From assembly GCF_037023735.1 (NCBI RefSeq), contig NZ_CP146069.1:3017501-3081500 (forward strand): DNA of 64,000 bases, written 5' to 3'. This document shows, piece after piece, positions 4,522 to 60,049 of this stretch. The translations under genes and the position numbers were made by a program. The notes under the pieces are model-generated. The model was not told where the DNA came from. It ran no database searches and saw nothing but the letters and a program-made list of their open reading frames with translations. Source of the stretch: Roseovarius sp. S88. Lineage in GTDB: Bacteria; Pseudomonadota; Alphaproteobacteria; Rhodobacterales; Rhodobacteraceae. How positions within the stretch are numbered: the first letter of the stretch is position 1; each line of letters starts with the position of its first letter.

Positions 4522-5913
4522 ATGTCACCGAACCCGCCCAACCTAAGACCGGATCTGGCGCAGCCGCGCATCAAGCCTGAGCAACGCGGCGACCAGCCTG
4601 TGATCGGCATGGTCTCGCTGGGGTGTCCAAAAGCGTTGGTGGACAGCGAACGCATCCTGACTCGGCTCCGCGCTGAAGGTTATGGCATTTCACCCGACTA
4701 TACCGGTGCGGACGCCGTGATCGTGAACACCTGCGGGTTCCTCGATTCCGCCAAGGCCGAAAGCCTGGATGCCATCGGCGAGGCACTGCGCGAAAATGGT
4801 AGGGTGATCGTAACAGGCTGTTTGGGCGCCGAAGAAGACTACATCACCGGCGCGCATCCCAGCGTTCTGGCTGTGACCGGTCCGCACCAATACGAACAGG
4901 TTCTGGATGCCGTGCACCAGGCCGTTCCACCAAAACCCAACCCGTTTGTGGACCTGCTGCCCGAAACCGGTGTCAAACTGACACCGCGGCACTATTCGTA
5001 CCTCAAGATTTCCGAGGGGTGTAACCACAAATGCAAGTTCTGCATCATCCCCGACATGCGGGGCAAACTGGCCTCTCGGCCCGGCCACGCCGTCCTGCGC
5101 GAAGCCACGGCGTTGGTCGAAAACGGGGTACGCGAACTTTTGGTAATCTCCCAAGATACAAGTGCTTACGGGTTGGACCGAAAGTATGACGTGAACAGCT
5201 GGAACGATGTCGAACTGCGCAGTCACATCGTCGATCTGTCCAGAGAGCTCGGCAAACTCGGTGCATGGATCCGCCTGCACTATGTCTATCCCTACCCACA
5301 TGTGCGCGAGTTGATCCCGCTCATGGCCGACCCTGACAATGGCCTCCTGCCCTATCTCGACATTCCGTTTCAACACGCCCATCCTGACACATTGAAACGC
5401 ATGGCGCGTCCTGCCGCCGGCACCAAAACCCTAGACGAAATCACCGCCTGGCGCACCATTTGTCCCGACATCACCATCCGCTCGACCTTTATCGTGGGAT
5501 ATCCTGGAGAAACCGAGGAAGAATTCCAGACTCTTCTCGATTGGCTGCAAGAAGCACAGCTCGATCGCGTCGGGTGTTTTCAATATGAAAACGTTGAAGG
5601 CGCGCGCGCCAACGACTTGCCAGATCATGTGCCCGAAGAGGTCATGCAAGACCGCTGGGAGCGATTTATGCAAACGGCTCAGGCTATTTCTGTGGATAAG
5701 CTGACCGCAAAGGTTGGAACGCAGCAAGAGGTCATCGTCGACGACATTGACGAAGATGGCATTGCCACCTGCCGGACGAAGGCCGATGCGCCTGAAATCG
5801 ATGGCTGTCTCTTCATAGATGAAAATACCGAGAGCCTGTCGGTCGGTGACATTGTCACCGTCGAGGTGGACGAGGCTGGCGATTACGATCTTTGGGGCCG
5901 GTTGATCCGCTGA
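4522..5913 (+). CDS. rimO: Ribosomal protein S12 methylthiotransferase RimO
   Basis: A 463-residue radical SAM enzyme that methylthiolates the conserved aspartate of ribosomal protein S12. The UPF0004 domain carries the three cysteines C35, C71 and C100 ([26 protein letters not shown]). The radical SAM cluster motif [10 protein letters not shown] gives C167, C171 and C174. A TRAM domain ends the protein (IVDDIDEDG to LWGRLIR). Length and layout are normal for RimO rather than MiaB ([12 protein letters not shown] is RimO text). The ribosome site is weak and the first 25 residues look poorly conserved, so the start may lie a little further in. Confidence 0.96.
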
Positions 5914-43403: not shown

Positions 43404-43877
43404 TTATTCAGCCGATTGTGCCGCCGCGACGGTCAAAGACCCGCCTGCTTTTTCCACCGCCTCAATGGCCGATTTCGACGCGCCCGTCACTTCCAGCTTG
43501 AGCTTGGCACTGACCTCGCCCTTTGCCAGAACGCGGATACCGTCCAGCTTGCGCCGCACCAGACCGCTTTCAACGAGTACGTCTTCTGTGATTGCTTTCT
43601 TGGCATCCAGTTTCTTCGCATCGACGAATTTCTGAATGAGACCAAGGTTCACCACGGCAAACTTCTTGCGGTTTGGCTTGTTAAAGCCGCGCTTGGGCAG
43701 CCGTTGGTAGAGCGGCATTTGCCCACCCTCATAACCCGCAATAGCCACGCCCGAACGGGATTTCTGACCTTTGATACCGCGGCCCGCGGTTTTACCCATG
43801 CCAGAGCCAGGACCACGGCCAACGCGTTTCTTGCGTTTCGTGGCGCCGGGATTGTCGCGCAATTCATTGAGTTTCAT
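43404..43877 (-). CDS. rplO: 50S ribosomal protein L15
   Basis: A 157-residue L15: [40 protein letters not shown] and [15 protein letters not shown]. In the normal spc operon it directly follows rpmD; here rpmD ends 4.8 kb away and an unrelated gene island lies in between. It must therefore use its own promoter or very long read-through, possibly a promoter in 43878-44010. Confidence 0.98.
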
Positions 43878-44010
43878 ATCGCTTCTCCTAAGCCGGATGT
43901 GACCCCCGAAGCGTAACGGGCCAACCACGGCGTTTCTTGATTGTGAGTCGTATGGCACTGGGCCACCGGGGGCGTATAGACCCGAAGCGATATGTGATCA
44001 AGTGCGAAGA

Positions 44011-44394
44011 CTATTGCAACCGCGCCGGACTTGCCTGCCTCCGACGTTCGCTCACGAAAGTCGGGCGCTCAGACGCCGCCACATGGGTCGATGTGACCTC
44101 AACAGAAGGCAGACGCCGCGACCCCAACTGCCGCCACCGCTTCACCGCGCCACCCAGCGACATCACGATGTAAAACGCCTGGATCAGCGCCGCACTGAGA
44201 TTGAAGTCCACAAACAGCGACACCATCACACAAGACGCCGCACTGCCCGTCAGCAAAAAATATGTCGGCGTGGAGCAGCTTAGGCGTCCAGTACACAGGG
44301 CAAAAAATCCCAACACATAAATAGACACCCCCACCAGACCCACGGCACGACATACCAACACAACATCAACACTCGAAAACTCATACGAAACCAT
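44011..44394 (-). CDS. Small membrane protein resembling the CBU_0592 group
   Basis: A 127-residue protein with three hydrophobic segments (about residues 8-32, 42-60 and 64-82; for example GVSIYVLGFFALC and TYFLLTGSAASCVMVSLF), and a polar basic tail of about 40 residues. The hydrophobic part resembles CBU_0592-type proteins, which are of unknown role. I take MVSYEFSSVDVV as the start; an upstream ATG at 44451 is possible. It is divergent from the retron-like locus, with 257 bases between its start and the candidate RNA. Confidence 0.65.
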   Translation of the reverse strand: MVSYEFSSVDVVLVCRAVGLVGVSIYVLGFFALCTGRLSCSTPTYFLLTGSAASCVMVSLFVDFNLSAALIQAFYIVMSLGGAVKRWRQLGSRRLPSVEVTSTHVAASERPTFVSERRRQASPARLQ

Positions 44395-44651
44395 CACACA
44401 CCTGGCTCTTTCCCAGCCTGGCACTCGTTGCTGCGAGTACATCCAAGCCATGAAACCCAGCTACCTCGCTCCCTGTCAGCGCACCGTCAGTTAAGGCGTT
44501 AAAGAAGTGTGAAAAACACGTGAGCAGTCGCGTTTTGGCGACACCGGACAGCAGAGAGGCGTGCTCCACTCAACAAAGTGAAGGACTGCAAACACTTGAC
44601 GCTTAACGGTATTCCCTCTTGCCAGCGCGCTCCTCAATTTGCATGTTTGAA
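44395..44651. promoter_or_regulatory. Divergent region between the small membrane gene and the retron RNA
   Basis: No gene is visible. Two small hairpins stand out: ACTCG/CGAGT at about 44422-44438 and GTCGC/GCGAC at about 44527-44542. A TTGACG at 44596-44601 could be the -35 element for the RNA, but I see no good -10 element at the right distance. Confidence 0.35.
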
Positions 44652-44813
44652 ATACAACGGCGGCCTCTGGATAGCTCGCTGCAGCTTTGCAGAGAGTTGG
44701 GCGGGGCATCCCCGCCTTCGAAGATGACCAACACAAACAAGGCGCAACCGCCACTGGGTTTCACCCAGAACGGGTAGCGCAAATCGCAGAAAAGCAGAGG
44801 CCGTTCGTTGCAT
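44652..44813 (+). ncRNA. Candidate retron msr-msd RNA
   Basis: The outer arms form an imperfect inverted repeat. CGGCCTCTG (44661-44669) pairs with CAGAGGCCG (44795-44803), and CAACG (44655-44659) with CGTTG (44806-44810), with a wobble and one bulge between. Just after the left arm comes AGC (44673-44675), the context of the branching G in retron msr. Then two hairpins follow, CTCgCTGCA/TGCAGaGAG (44675-44696) and GGCGGGG/CCCCGCC (44700-44716). A longer msd-like stem runs 44742-44780 (GCGC, CCG/CGG, CTGGGT/ACCCAG). The right arm ends 13 bases before the reverse transcriptase ATG. This is the layout of known retrons (a1-msr-msd-a2-RT); production of msDNA is inferred. Confidence 0.6.
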
Positions 44814-44826
44814 CCGGTCAAGTCAA

Positions 44827-46152
44827 ATGGATAAACGCCAGCTTGCAGAAAACCTTGCGGTCAGCCTGTGCAGTGCAGGATGGTCAAAAGAGACGCTCTG
44901 TTCCACACTAGTCCGCAGGCTTCCGCCAGCTGTGCACGTTTTGGCAGGGCCAATAAGCAGCGATCTGGTTGGTGAAATCGTGAAACCTTACGCGCCTGCG
45001 CCCAAAGTCGTGCAAAGCATTCTTTGTCAAAATCCAAGTTTTCAACGCCTTTTCACTTATTGCCAGAAAAACAATGTCTGGCCGGCTCCGGACCTGACTG
45101 CGCCGGTCATGGCACCGACCGACGCCTTTGTGGCCCTGGAACTGCCTAAACTCACTACCGCAGATGCTCTTGCCGATTGGGTCGGGCTGTCACTGGATCA
45201 ACTCGCATACCATTCAGATCTGCAGAACCGGTTCGAAGAACACGGCGATATGGCAGTCAATCATTACCACTATCACCTCAAACCAAAGTCATCTGGCGGT
45301 CAGCGTGTGATCGAGGCCCCAAAAAAGCGCTTAAAGACCATCCAACGCCGCATTTTGACCGGGATCCTCAACCCTGTTGCCTCACATCCAGACACGTTTG
45401 GCTTTGTCAGAGGGCGCAACTGTCTTGACGGCGCGGCGCGTCACGCCGGGGAACAGGCTGTATTGTGTTTTGACCTAAAGGATTTCTTTCCCTCCATCGG
45501 ATATGCGCGTGTGTTCGGATTGTTCAGATACCTTGGATACCCTCACACCGTCGCCCGCCATTTGTCAGCTTTCTGCACAAACGTGACCCCGTCGCGCATT
45601 GTCGAGCATTTGCGGCCCGAAGATCGCCCGCTGTACAAGACCCCGCATCTGCCACAGGGCGCGCCAACCTCGCCATCCTTGGCCAACCTTTTGGCCTACA
45701 CACTCGACAAACGGTTGTCGGCGCTTGCGCGATCCCTGAATGCAAATTTCAGCCGATACGCTGATGATTTGGCGTTTTCGGGGGACTCATTCATCGCGGC
45801 AACTCTGGTGCGCACCGTGCCCAGCATCGTCGAAGAGGAAGGGTTCACACTCAACACCAAGAAAACCAGAGTGACATCCGCCTCGTCGCGTCAGTCTGTA
45901 ACGGGCATCGTGGTGAACCAACACCTCAATATTGACCGTAAGACCTTTGACCGGCTCAAGGCCATCATCCACGCTTGCGGAAAACCTGAAGACACAAGAT
46001 TAAACGACCCTGCCTTTTGCGCCTCGCTGATTGGCAAGCTTGATTGGTGCGAACGCGTGAATCCCGGGCGAGGACAAAAACTCAAGACATTGCTCTCAAG
46101 ATCAATTGATCGCAAGTTTGGACGTGACGAGACAGCCCCTTCCAAGACTTGA
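44827..46152 (+). CDS. Retron-type reverse transcriptase with long N-terminal region
   Basis: A 441-residue RT. RT1 is at about 146-176 (SGGQRVIEAPKKRLKTIQRR), RT2 at 191-206 (FGFVRGRNCLDGAARH; GAARH stands where retron RTs have NAxxH), RT3 at 214-224 (CFDLKDFFPSI, catalytic D216), RT4 at 275-289 (LPQGAPTSPSLANLL), RT5 at 310-319 (RYADDLAFSG, catalytic D313-D314), RT6 at 339-349 and the VTG motif at 358-360 (QSVTGIVVN). VTG and the NAxxH-like position mark retron RTs. No maturase, endonuclease, CRISPR or protease domain follows. The first 110 or so residues exceed the usual retron length and match nothing I know. No separate effector gene is adjacent, so this region may be the effector or an RNA-binding part. 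Confidence 0.85.
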   Translation: MDKRQLAENLAVSLCSAGWSKETLCSTLVRRLPPAVHVLAGPISSDLVGEIVKPYAPAPKVVQSILCQNPSFQRLFTYCQKNNVWPAPDLTAPVMAPTDAFVALELPKLTTADALADWVGLSLDQLAYHSDLQNRFEEHGDMAVNHYHYHLKPKSSGGQRVIEAPKKRLKTIQRRILTGILNPVASHPDTFGFVRGRNCLDGAARHAGEQAVLCFDLKDFFPSIGYARVFGLFRYLGYPHTVARHLSAFCTNVTPSRIVEHLRPEDRPLYKTPHLPQGAPTSPSLANLLAYTLDKRLSALARSLNANFSRYADDLAFSGDSFIAATLVRTVPSIVEEEGFTLNTKKTRVTSASSRQSVTGIVVNQHLNIDRKTFDRLKAIIHACGKPEDTRLNDPAFCASLIGKLDWCERVNPGRGQKLKTLLSRSIDRKFGRDETAPSKT

Positions 46153-46216
46153 TGCCACTGAAAGTTCCAGAACATCGACAGTGTCGCGCACAGTCCGCAC
46201 CATTAACCCTCTCCAG

Positions 46217-46271
46217 ATACCGACGCCGCACCGACGCAATACCGACGTGATACTGATGTAATACCGACATC
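46217..46271. repeat. Five tandem 11-bp units (ATACCGACGCA type)
   Basis: Units ATACCGACGCC, GCACCGACGCA, ATACCGACGTG, ATACTGATGTA and ATACCGACATC in exact 11-base period. It lies between the 3' ends of the RT and ectoine synthase genes. Twenty-seven bases are identical to the array at 12727-12753. Confidence 0.85.
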
Positions 46272-46308
46272 CAAATCCCCTCAAAACAAGGGCGTTAACC
46301 TTTGCGCC

Positions 46309-46692
46309 TCACTCCGACGCCGCATAGCTCCCATCGGCATCATGCGTTTCTTGCCCGCTCAGCGCGGGCGTGAAGATACAGATGAACCGCAGGTCTGTTT
46401 CAGCCCGGATGATATGCGGGTCATGCTCATCAAGCACATACATCACTCCCGGCTCAAGCGGCCAGGTTTCACCGGTGACGGCGTTCTCAACTTCTCCTTT
46501 CCCTTCAATGCAGTAGTTCGCCTCAATATGGTTCTTGTAGTGCAGGTGCTGGGTGCTGCCGGCCTTTACCACCGTGTCGTGAAACGAATACCCCAACCCA
46601 TCGCGTGCCAACAAAATCCGCCGGCTTTCAAAGGCGTCTCCCGTGGCATGATCTGGTGTGCCAAGTACGTCAGAAAGCGTTTTTACCAACAT
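46309..46692 (-). CDS. ectC: Ectoine synthase, stand-alone
   Basis: A 127-residue cupin that would close N-gamma-acetyl-diaminobutyrate to ectoine. HLHYKNHIEANYCIEGKGEV and YVLDEHDPHIIRA are EctC text. With the start at 46692 the iron ligands fall at E57, Y85 and H93, the same numbers I recall for the structurally known EctC, which supports this ATG over the TTG six bases upstream; GAGGG also fits it. ectA, ectB and ectD are not nearby, so this is an orphan EctC of the kind used to make ectoine from imported precursor, or with another cyclase role. Confidence 0.9.
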   Translation of the reverse strand: MLVKTLSDVLGTPDHATGDAFESRRILLARDGLGYSFHDTVVKAGSTQHLHYKNHIEANYCIEGKGEVENAVTGETWPLEPGVMYVLDEHDPHIIRAETDLRFICIFTPALSGQETHDADGSYAASE

Positions 46693-46753
46693 ATTCAATT
46701 CCCTCGCAGTGCTGTGAGTTGATTTTAGGCCCGTTGGGATATGTTATGACAAT

Positions 46754-47452
46754 ATGAAGAGCACAAAGACAATCCTGGCCAGCTGCCTCGCCGCAAGCCT
46801 CACGTTCAGCACAACAGCCTCTGCCACCGATTGCGCCCGTGATGCGATGCTGGTGTTTGACGGATCAGCCTCCATGGCCGAATTGGGTCTCAACCTTGCG
46901 GATCCCAAGCGCATCGACGACGCCCGCACTGCGTTACACGACGCAATGCCGCAGATTGCCCCGGTGCGCCGGATTGGCCTGTTGACCTATGGGCCGGGTC
47001 CGGAGAACTCCTGCGAAGGGATCAACCTCAAATTTGGGCCTGTCGCGGATGCTGCGCAACCGATCCTTGAGGCGATAGAGCTACTTGATCCCAATGGCTT
47101 AACCCCCCTGACAGAGGCCGTGCGCACCGCTGCTGACGTGCTGAACTATCGCTCAGAGCCTGGTATCGTGGTGCTCGTTACAGATGGCAACGAAACCTGT
47201 GGTGGCAGGCCTTGCGCCTTGGGCGCCGAACTCGCGGCAACGGATCGCGACCTAACTGTGCACGTCATCGGATTTCGCGTGGTCACGGATCGCTTTGCCT
47301 GGGACAGCCCCGAGGCCAATGTGTACCCTGATGGCATTTCGGTCGCCAAATGTCTCTCGGATCAAACCGGGGGTATGTATGTCTCAACCGAGACCATTGA
47401 TGAGCTGAGCCAGGCCCTGCGACGCACTCTGGGATGCGCCCTCATTGGCTAA
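46754..47452 (+). CDS. Secreted VWA-domain protein, first of a tandem pair
   Basis: A 232-residue protein with a signal peptide (KTILASCLAASLTFSTTASA) and a von Willebrand A domain. The MIDAS motif is FDGSASMAELG; further VWA text is GLTPLTEAVRTAADVL and IVVLVTDGNETC. Six cysteines are shared with the next gene, pointing to disulfides in the periplasm. It may bind a protein partner via a divalent metal. Divergent from ectC; overlaps the next gene by eight bases. Confidence 0.88.
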   Translation: MKSTKTILASCLAASLTFSTTASATDCARDAMLVFDGSASMAELGLNLADPKRIDDARTALHDAMPQIAPVRRIGLLTYGPGPENSCEGINLKFGPVADAAQPILEAIELLDPNGLTPLTEAVRTAADVLNYRSEPGIVVLVTDGNETCGGRPCALGAELAATDRDLTVHVIGFRVVTDRFAWDSPEANVYPDGISVAKCLSDQTGGMYVSTETIDELSQALRRTLGCALIG

Positions 47453-48131
47453 AGTTCTGAAAACCGCCGCCGCAACAGGCCTTGCGTTATGCGTGGCCAC
47501 CCAGAGCATGGCGCAATGCAGCCGGGACGCTATGTTGGTCTTTGACGGCTCAGCCTCCATGGCGGAACTTGGCTTTGGCGCCAGTGGCCCCTCACGCATT
47601 GAAGAAGCCCGTACAGCGGTGGCCGAGGTGATGCCGCAGGTCGCCCCGGTCCGTCGCATCGGGCTATTGACTTATGGGCCGGGCGCAGCGGACAGCTGTC
47701 GCGGGATTCAGGTGAAATTCACACCAAGGGCAGATGCAGACAGGGCTGTGATTGCCGAGGTGAAGGCCCTACGCCCTGCCGGCCTGACCCCGCTCACGGA
47801 TGCCGTGCGCGAGGCGGCTGAGGTTTTGGACTATCGCACCACCCCCGGCATCATCGTGCTGGTCACAGACGGCTCGGAAACCTGCAGCGGCGCGCCGTGC
47901 CGGCTAGGCCAGCAGCTGGCATCGACAGGCCGCGATCTGACGGTGCACATCATCGGCTTCAGGTTGGTGTTTGACCCGTTTTCGTGGAACAGTATTGAGG
48001 CGTTTCAAGCCGCCGCCGCAGAGGTGCAATGCCTCGCAGATCAGACCGGTGGGAGCTATGTGACGACCGAAACGGTAGATGAGCTTGCGGATGCGTTAAG
48101 ACGGACGTTGGGGTGTGCGGTGGTGGGGTGA
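47445..48131 (+). CDS. Secreted VWA-domain protein, second of a tandem pair
   Basis: A 228-residue close paralogue of the preceding gene: signal peptide KTAAATGLALCVATQSMAQ, then CSRDAMLVFDGSASMAELG, RRIGLLTYGPGAADSC, GLTPLTDAVREAAEVLDYR and TVDELADALRRTLGCAVVG. The start is a TTG inside the end of the first gene; the signal peptide begins there and no ATG replaces it. The overlap and rare start suggest translation by re-initiation from the first copy. Confidence 0.85.
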   Translation: MAKVLKTAAATGLALCVATQSMAQCSRDAMLVFDGSASMAELGFGASGPSRIEEARTAVAEVMPQVAPVRRIGLLTYGPGAADSCRGIQVKFTPRADADRAVIAEVKALRPAGLTPLTDAVREAAEVLDYRTTPGIIVLVTDGSETCSGAPCRLGQQLASTGRDLTVHIIGFRLVFDPFSWNSIEAFQAAAAEVQCLADQTGGSYVTTETVDELADALRRTLGCAVVG

Positions 48132-59645: not shown

Positions 59646-60049
59646 GCTTTCTGTCTTCCGTTTAGCAGTGGCGGATGAATGCATCCGCCTATGTAGGCCG
59701 GGGTTGACCCCGGCATGGATATAGGCCCCCGGAGGTGCCCGGTTGAAATGGTCTTGCGACCAAAAGCACAGCCCCGGACGAATCCGGGGCCTTGCCGATG
59801 GGGTCGTTTACGAAAGAGAGGGGGCGGGTCAAGGGGGCTGGATGAGAAACTCCACGCCGTCATCCTCGGGCTTGACCCGAGGACCACTTGACCAGGAGAT
59901 CCCCGATCAAGTCGGGGATGACGACACGCAGAGTGGTAAGCCGCGCGATATCGAAGTCAGCAGTCGCAGATAGATGATTGCAAGGAAGTTGAAATATCTA
60001 AGTTCAGTATTCACTTTCAATAAATGAATATAGAGACCTGGAATATGGA
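59646..60049. repeat. Repeat-rich gap upstream of rplB
   Basis: No gene is visible on the minus strand in these 404 bases. Present are a dispersed palindrome at 59693-59714 (GTAGGCCGGGGTTGACCCCG plus two bases), a hairpin CCCCGGA/TCCGGGG near 59773-59789, and a larger cruciform at 59858-59923. In the cruciform, CGTCATCC pairs with GGATGACG around two inner hairpins (CCTCGGG/CCCGAGG and CCCCGA/TCGGGG). The rightmost 80 bases are A/T-rich. Confidence 0.65.

Follow-up and report, generated by a model that had tools for sequence, protein, structure and literature searches.

Our analysis strongly supports the presence of a retron at positions 44654-46152 of a 64,000-nucleotide stretch of the Roseovarius sp. 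S88 genome (hereafter the window), in which a structured RNA of the msr-msd type (44654-44814) is followed on the plus strand by the gene for a 441-residue reverse transcriptase (RT; 44827-46152). This assignment, a computational one, is based on covariation of the RNA in two sets of homologs, the linkage of the RNA to the RT gene, the phylogeny of the RT, and its predicted fold. The S88 genome comprises 3.64 Mb in 2 contigs, and the retron is situated in it between a ribosomal-protein block and an ectoine-synthase-like cupin gene (46309-46698, minus strand). The ribosomal-protein block contains an ORF at 43404-43958 (minus strand) that we take to be rplO-like, and a small ORF for a membrane protein of the CBU_0592 family occupies 44011-44451. 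The RT is the only match to RVT_1 in the genome, and the RNA model R1 (see below) has its sole genomic match at E<=0.001 at 44654-44814, with a score of 167.5 bits.

Structure and covariation of the msr-msd RNA

The RNA is enclosed by the imperfect inverted repeat of 9 + 5 bp that had been noted in a preliminary description of this locus. The a1 arm (44655-44659 and 44661-44669) pairs with the a2 arm (44795-44803 and 44806-44810) over 5 + 9 bp, with 44655-44659 facing 44806-44810 and 44661-44669 facing 44795-44803. The two msr-like hairpins and the msd-like stem proposed at the same time are also present and supported by covariation; they correspond to msr hairpin 1 (44673-44698), msr hairpin 2 (44700-44716), and an 8-bp msd stem (44742-44780) that contains an apical hairpin with a 5-bp stem (44754-44768), all on the plus strand. 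The distance from the right arm to the RT was misjudged earlier as 13 bases: the gap between the end of a2 (44810) and the RT start codon (44827) is 16 bases. Folding of 44640-44830 yields -77 kcal/mol, versus -59.2 +/- 3.75 kcal/mol for 200 shuffled sequences, none of which was as low (z -4.76). No Rfam match to the msr-msd RNA of the window was obtained.

A first alignment (A3) was assembled from 21 distinct upstream regions of homologous RT genes, aligned by sequence, onto which the structure drawn from the window was placed. Its rows are the nhmmer hits at E<1e-6 minus copies (L001, L115, L017, L101, and L120), and L107 (a partial match) and L119 (close to L102) were also left out by choice. 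In A3, 90.6% of 882 cells are paired, compared with 38-44% when the partners are slid, and double-sided changes are seen in 30 of 44 pairs versus 15.6 in shuffles. The covariation score is 0.316 versus 0.156 in shuffled alignments, and none of 500 shuffles, which ignore relatedness, scored as high. The a1/a2 helix is paired in 96.5% of its cells, the 8-bp msd stem in 92.3% (with double changes in 7 of 8 pairs), and the apical 5-bp stem in 96.2% (2 of 5 pairs). Hairpin 1, whose length and sequence vary, is the least conserved helix, with 67.8% of its cells paired and compensatory changes in all 10 of its pairs. A second alignment (A7) contains 37 matches from 38 chosen sources (L030 gave none) and has no row in common with A3; it shows pairing in 93.7% of its cells, a percentage inflated by the fitting of A7 to the structure, and double changes in 40 of 44 pairs. 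The preliminary description had suggested that the arms be checked by folding and by covariation with homologous loci, and they do covary, with changes on both sides in 8 of 14 pairs in A3 and 14 of 14 in A7. In view of this covariation among homologs, the RNA structure is not a product of chance.

Hairpin 2, with 7 bp and a 3-nt loop, is the most conserved element of the RNA, being 100% paired in A3 and 99.2% paired in A7. According to the sections of PMC6868368 that were consulted, the Ec86 RT requires a core stem of 8 bp and the Ec73 RT binds a stem of 9 bp, each closed by a loop of three bases. Hairpin 2 resembles these stems and is likely the RT recognition hairpin. In the msd, the apical hairpin reads CTGGG/CCCAG or much alike in most of the 21 rows of A3, and forms like CTGCG/CGCAG are found in many rows of A7. 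This hairpin may represent a protein-binding site on the msDNA. A further observation concerns the database proteins P0021 and P0033, whose ORFs run through the msr-msd region; the conserved look of their N-terminal tails is probably due only to the underlying RNA.

Linkage of the RNA to the RT gene

The RNA model built from A3 (R1) was searched in 81 sources and gave a match at E<=1e-3 in 47, including six A3 members or copies (the window, L012, L013, L016, L017, and L021). All 47 matches are on the RT strand, at estimated distances of -41 to +81 nt from the RT start (median 14 nt). Among the 34 sources missed by R1 are some lacking upstream sequence (L011) or outside the family (L004), and many were later found by the model built from A7 (R2), which was searched in 79 sources. 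At E<=1e-4, where the E-values of either model should be taken as rough, R2 detected the RNA at 47 of 49 RT loci of the family and at none of 30 other RT loci. The family loci missed are L053 and L080; L074 is cut by the contig end. The 30 other loci comprise eight type XIII-like loci (by PADLOC, tree or sequence), ten viral-contig relatives, and 12 other retron, DRT, or unassigned RTs; the best R2 E-value among them is 0.23, and two (L091 and L092) begin inside the RT frame and could not show the RNA. One locus of the family, from Solirubrobacterales (L078), has an RNA model match at 5468-5641 on the strand opposite to its RT.

Candidate branching guanosine, predicted msDNA template, and promoter-like element

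An AGC reported earlier directly after the left arm is indeed present, at 44673-44675, and it is not conserved: the column of its G (44674) holds G in 13 of 21 A3 rows, in a gappy part of the alignment, and the nearest relative, L008, has AAC in its place. The classical TAGC/AGC is thus not conserved in the family, but a guanosine at the inner end of a1 is. G44670, which directly follows a1, is matched by G in 21 of 21 rows of A3 and 35 of 37 rows of A7. The inner end of the a1 stem in known retrons contains the priming guanosine or stops just before it (PMC6868368, as far as consulted). Given this placement and its conservation, we propose G44670 rather than G44674 as the better candidate for the branching guanosine that would supply the 2'-OH primer. 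By the anatomy of known retrons, the msDNA template is predicted at 44725-44794 (plus strand), with a 3' limit that adjoins a2 and a 5' limit that may fall anywhere within 44725-44738. The locus would accordingly be expected to produce msDNA, most likely of about 57-70 nt. Upstream of the RNA, a promoter-like element is found on the plus strand at 44619-44647 (TTGCCA at 44619-44624, a 17-nt spacer, and CATGTT at 44642-44647), ending 7 nt before a1. A CTTGGCA ... GCAT-like pattern can be seen by eye in many, but not all, of the 21 homologs, with variable spacing to a1, which lends weak support to a promoter here.

Motifs, fold, and phylogeny of the RT

The RT motifs listed in the preliminary description were all located in the 441-residue protein: LPQGAPTSP (residues 275-283), YADD (311-314), VTG (358-360), and GAARH (202-206). 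Both active-site aspartates are kept in 85 of 85 aligned relatives. In the NAxxH motif of region X, the histidine (H206) is present in all 85 but an asparagine occurs at residue 202 in only four, and in the VTG of region Y, T359 is found in 64 and G360 in 82 of the 85. The RTs of Ec48 and Mx65 are likewise described, in the consulted sections of PMC6868368, as lacking the N of NAxxH. Pfam RVT_1 matches the RT with 83.6 bits, and 5306 database proteins among 7997 scored match it at E<=1e-3. The AlphaFold2 model of the RT has a pLDDT of 95 and a pTM of 0.89. Its best solved match in Foldseek is the RT of retron Ec86 (Eco1), a type II-A retron, with a TM of 0.86 normalised to the Ec86 chain.

The best two PADLOC models on the RT are RT_other (PDLC02949; 405 bits, residues 3-425) and RT_outgroup (PDLC03740, described as "retron"; 384 bits, residues 4-425), which cover nearly its full length, N-terminal part included, and each match 85 of 85 aligned relatives; RT_XIII is third, with 320 bits over residues 102-429. 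RT_other and RT_outgroup are RT models only and name no effector type. Among NCBIfam models, a retron model scores best, but below its curated cut-off. In a 63-row IQ-TREE phylogeny with a midpoint root, several long outgroup branches, and 20 rows of odd letter composition, the RT family forms one clade (support 100/98), which takes in a previously ungrouped myxobacterial row (L162). The reference rows of this tree were assigned by PADLOC or record annotation and the rest by score only. The family is sister to the type XIII-like rows (98/94), which form their own clade (96/88), and the retron rows, including both of these, are set apart from Drt2-like, Drt8-like, and other RTs (96/81). The RT had been proposed for placement against published retron clades, and it falls inside the retron RTs.

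Comparison with known systems

Retrons have been sorted into 13 types according to what their effector does and how the operon is built (PMC12548924, as consulted). The sister clade, type XIII (PADLOC RT_XIII; Mx162-like retrons of myxobacteria), shares an extended N-terminus. It differs in that L127 (presumably Mx162-like), L126, and L171 score best with RT_XIII (515, 387, and 538 bits, respectively), whereas the window RT scores best with RT_other, and none of eight type XIII-like loci has an R2 match below an E-value of 0.2. Membership in type XIII was rejected: the RT is sister to that type, both clades are supported, and its score is 405 bits with RT_other versus 320 with RT_XIII. Membership among the DRTs (Drt2- or Drt8-like) was likewise rejected, as Drt2 and Drt3a reach only 41 and 23 bits and both the tree and reference scans group the RT with retrons.

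Ec86 resembles the window in the fold of its RT core, the order of its RNA elements, and a core hairpin whose loop has three bases (the RNA features in part from the consulted sections of PMC6868368). Unlike Ec86, the window has no neighbouring effector that we could find and its RT carries about 105 extra N-terminal residues, and the N of NAxxH is replaced in most of the family. Mx65 (Retron-Mxa2), likened here by its description only, shares the extended N-terminus and the substituted N in NAxxH (PMC6868368, in the part consulted). The preliminary description had called this a new retron. As PADLOC already holds nearly full-length models for the RT clade, this is only partly right: the clade is catalogued, while the RNA and the N-terminal domain are without a description that we could find. 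The literature searched for such a description included the accessible portions of PMC6868368, PMC12548924, PMC12262390, PMC10221251, PMC3832669, and PMC8934634, and its scope stopped short of two key surveys.

The N-terminal domain

The roughly 100 extra N-terminal residues remarked on earlier prove to be a family trait, all 85 aligned relatives having 102-125 residues ahead of the column for residue 112, a count biased by the choice of full-length sequences. We delimit an N-terminal domain at residues 1-105 (44827-45141, plus strand) from the AlphaFold2 model and the alignment of relatives. Structure prediction, which had been recommended for residues 1-110, shows five helices in residues 1-82 and then a Pro-rich linker to about residue 111. 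No confident fold match for the domain was found in the PDB. A profile search restricted to similarly sized proteins returned three, of which two are named RNA-directed DNA polymerase (one of them "partial") and one is unnamed, and so found no free-standing homolog. The helical domain has so far been seen only in this RT family. When seven type XIII-like N-termini were compared with the family profile, only a 24-column segment adjoining the RT core was aligned and the helical part was not. Extended N-termini of unknown function are reported for myxococcal retron RTs in the consulted part of PMC6868368.

Neighbouring genes

The neighbours of the RT were clustered at 81 loci (L008-L087 and the window) with flanks of up to 6 kb and mechanically called ORFs, and no conserved effector-like neighbour was found. 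Apart from the RT and its shadow ORFs, the only neighbour group present at more than five of the 81 loci is a generic ABC-transporter group (16 loci). A set of 128 near neighbours was taken as the two nearest ORFs of at least 100 residues on each side at 32 of the 81 loci. Ten PADLOC families matched within this set, none in more than four of the 128 proteins, and Pfam returned mixed families, none of the 25 listed occurring in more than four. The preliminary description had noted no adjacent effector gene of a known retron class, and in the family no effector-like gene recurs at the 81 loci or among the 128 near neighbours. Tripartite retrons have a linked effector or a recognisable fused effector domain; neither was found, at the neighbours or by Pfam, which detects RVT_1 alone in the RT protein of the window. 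Neighbour analysis is blind to effectors encoded elsewhere in a genome. As no conserved effector-like neighbour accompanies the RT, the reading of this locus as a defence unit is unproven, and its context, namely the neighbour analysis and the metabolic-looking ORFs at the site of a close relative (below), does not support that earlier claim.

Inheritance and distribution

The nearest RT relative, in an uncultured Roseovarius (L008), has its retron at the same site, with 72% identity to the window at 43901-44411 and 78% at 46219-46896 on either side, and 73% in the retron itself. Five other loci (L023, L024, L026, L027, and L028) have a common neighbourhood, other than that of the window. The congener G008, with flanks 90-94% identical to those of the window, has other, metabolic-looking ORFs at the retron site, and blastn detected nothing of the retron between the flanks in seven further congener pieces; one of these congeners (G014) carries a distant member of the RT family elsewhere (44% identity). 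An RT homolog at E<=1e-60 was found in 15 of 394 genomes sampled at the family level and 16 of 390 at the order level (overlapping samples that include the S88 genome), and the RNA in five of 84 genomes of the genus, one of them weakly. The shared site in L008, the shared neighbourhood of the five loci, the replacement in G008, and these patchy counts indicate that the retron keeps its site by inheritance over some distance and that loss or replacement occurs as well. Congeners differ in how long the interval from the rplO side to the cupin gene is and in what it contains (43981-46309 in the window; L148-L155). The replaced region of G008 includes a segment resembling window 46213-46401 (L148 6006-6206, 82%), besides the copy at the cupin gene.

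More widely, members of the RT family occur in loci labelled as Alphaproteobacteria, Burkholderiales, Acidobacteriota, Planctomycetota, Gemmatimonadota, Actinomycetota, and Myxococcota, many of them MAGs. Around Pyxidicoccus, 33 of 59 genomes gave a match at E<=1e-15, a count that mixes the family with type XIII-like RTs. In Tsukamurella, the RT is flanked by a helix-turn-helix gene on one side and a HAD-like gene on the other, with polA and rpsA a few kb away, in a record filed as a plasmid. At least 80% of the RT is covered in only four of 195 matching plasmid records, and 80% coverage was reached in none of the 30 phage records with a match. The 13 relatives from viral contigs all lack a match before residue 108, and the nine that the tree includes lie outside the family. 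One locus with a Rhodobacterales-like retron RT and neighbourhood (L028, CP059262.1) is titled as an Exiguobacterium profundum MAG and is probably mislabelled.

Proposed mechanism and alternative explanations

We consider it likely that this locus represents a retron from a widespread RT clade without a linked effector, operating by transcription, folding with recognition, and synthesis of branched msDNA. Transcription from a promoter just before a1 would give a single transcript containing the RNA and the RT message. The pairing of a1 with a2, for which covariation provides the evidence, would set the 3' end of the template beside G44670, and the conserved hairpin of 7 bp with its 3-nt loop would be read by the RT. 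As in known retrons, the 2'-OH of G44670 would then prime the RT to copy about 57-70 nt of the msd, and the branched RNA-DNA product would stay bound to the RT. As a hypothetical further step, the complex of RT and msDNA could act without a neighbouring effector gene, with the N-terminal helical domain replacing a separate partner and offering a surface for contacts with the msDNA, with itself, or with an unlinked partner. This would define a two-part retron class of RNA and RT, in which the helical domain stands in for an effector or sensor and which forms a stable chromosomal system in many phyla, outside defence islands, with a function possibly other than abortive infection; we put this broader proposal forward tentatively and consider it rather doubtful at present.

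That a chance inverted repeat happens to lie beside an unrelated or decayed RT was conceivable while the observation rested on one sequence, but it is scarcely credible in the face of the covariation, the linkage in strand and spacing, the restriction of the RNA to one clade, and the intact RT frame and motifs. A DRT-like system, in which the upstream RNA would be a template or scaffold for the RT and there would be no 2'-5' branched priming, has a precedent in DRT2 and DRT9, which also pair an RT with a neighbouring RNA (PMC12039810 and PMC12489045, as consulted). It is nonetheless very improbable here, as the RT clusters with those of retrons and apart from Drt2- and Drt8-like ones, its Drt2 score is a small part of that of the best retron-class model, and the order a1, msr, msd, a2 is that of retrons.

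The remaining alternatives concern function. If the locus were a standard tripartite defence retron, its toxic effector would have to be encoded elsewhere and be restrained by the complex of RT and msDNA, but toxin and antidote genes are normally linked, and neither a conserved effector-like neighbour within the flanks of up to 6 kb nor a recurrent defence family was found beside the RT. We therefore regard this as unlikely, even though PMC12548924 (in the sections consulted) presents retrons as immune systems made up of RT, RNA, and toxic effector, and the family has a patchy occurrence in the genus of the kind often seen for defence genes. That the retron makes msDNA for a housekeeping or regulatory role, or persists as a nearly neutral resident element, rather than serving in defence, is a reasonable possibility, though short of probable. 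It is favored by signs of vertical inheritance, in that the window and L008 share a site whose flanks have diverged to about the same extent as the retron and the five other loci share a neighbourhood, and by the position of the viral-contig relatives outside the family and the lack of any record covering 80% of the RT among the 30 matching phage records. Its weaknesses are the patchy occurrence in the genus and the close relative with other genes at the site, and the neutral variant is further at odds with the maintenance of an intact RNA and RT over several phyla.

The preferred reading of a retron without a linked effector departs from the current view, in which RT, RNA, and toxic effector lie side by side, as here RNA and RT are kept together on their own. 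The most interesting point is how such a retron works and whether its N-terminal domain fills the role of the effector. With the RNA defined by covariation, the questions of whether these retrons produce msDNA, whether the N-terminal domain acts as an effector built into the RT, and what purpose a retron serves that has no toxin linked to it become directly addressable, and the RNAs also provide a collection of compact templates on which RT-DNA tools can draw.

Other features of the window

A DNA match to the ectoine-synthase-like cupin gene was present at the corresponding site in all eight congener pieces fetched, and a homolog was found somewhere in 35 of 40 genomes of the genus, some of which have two. 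Beside this gene, 46754-47452 and 47445-48131 encode related von Willebrand factor A domain proteins, in tandem and slightly overlapping, both with signal-peptide-like starts. An Rfam L2-Alphaproteobacteria ribosomal leader was identified at 59648-59740 on the minus strand.
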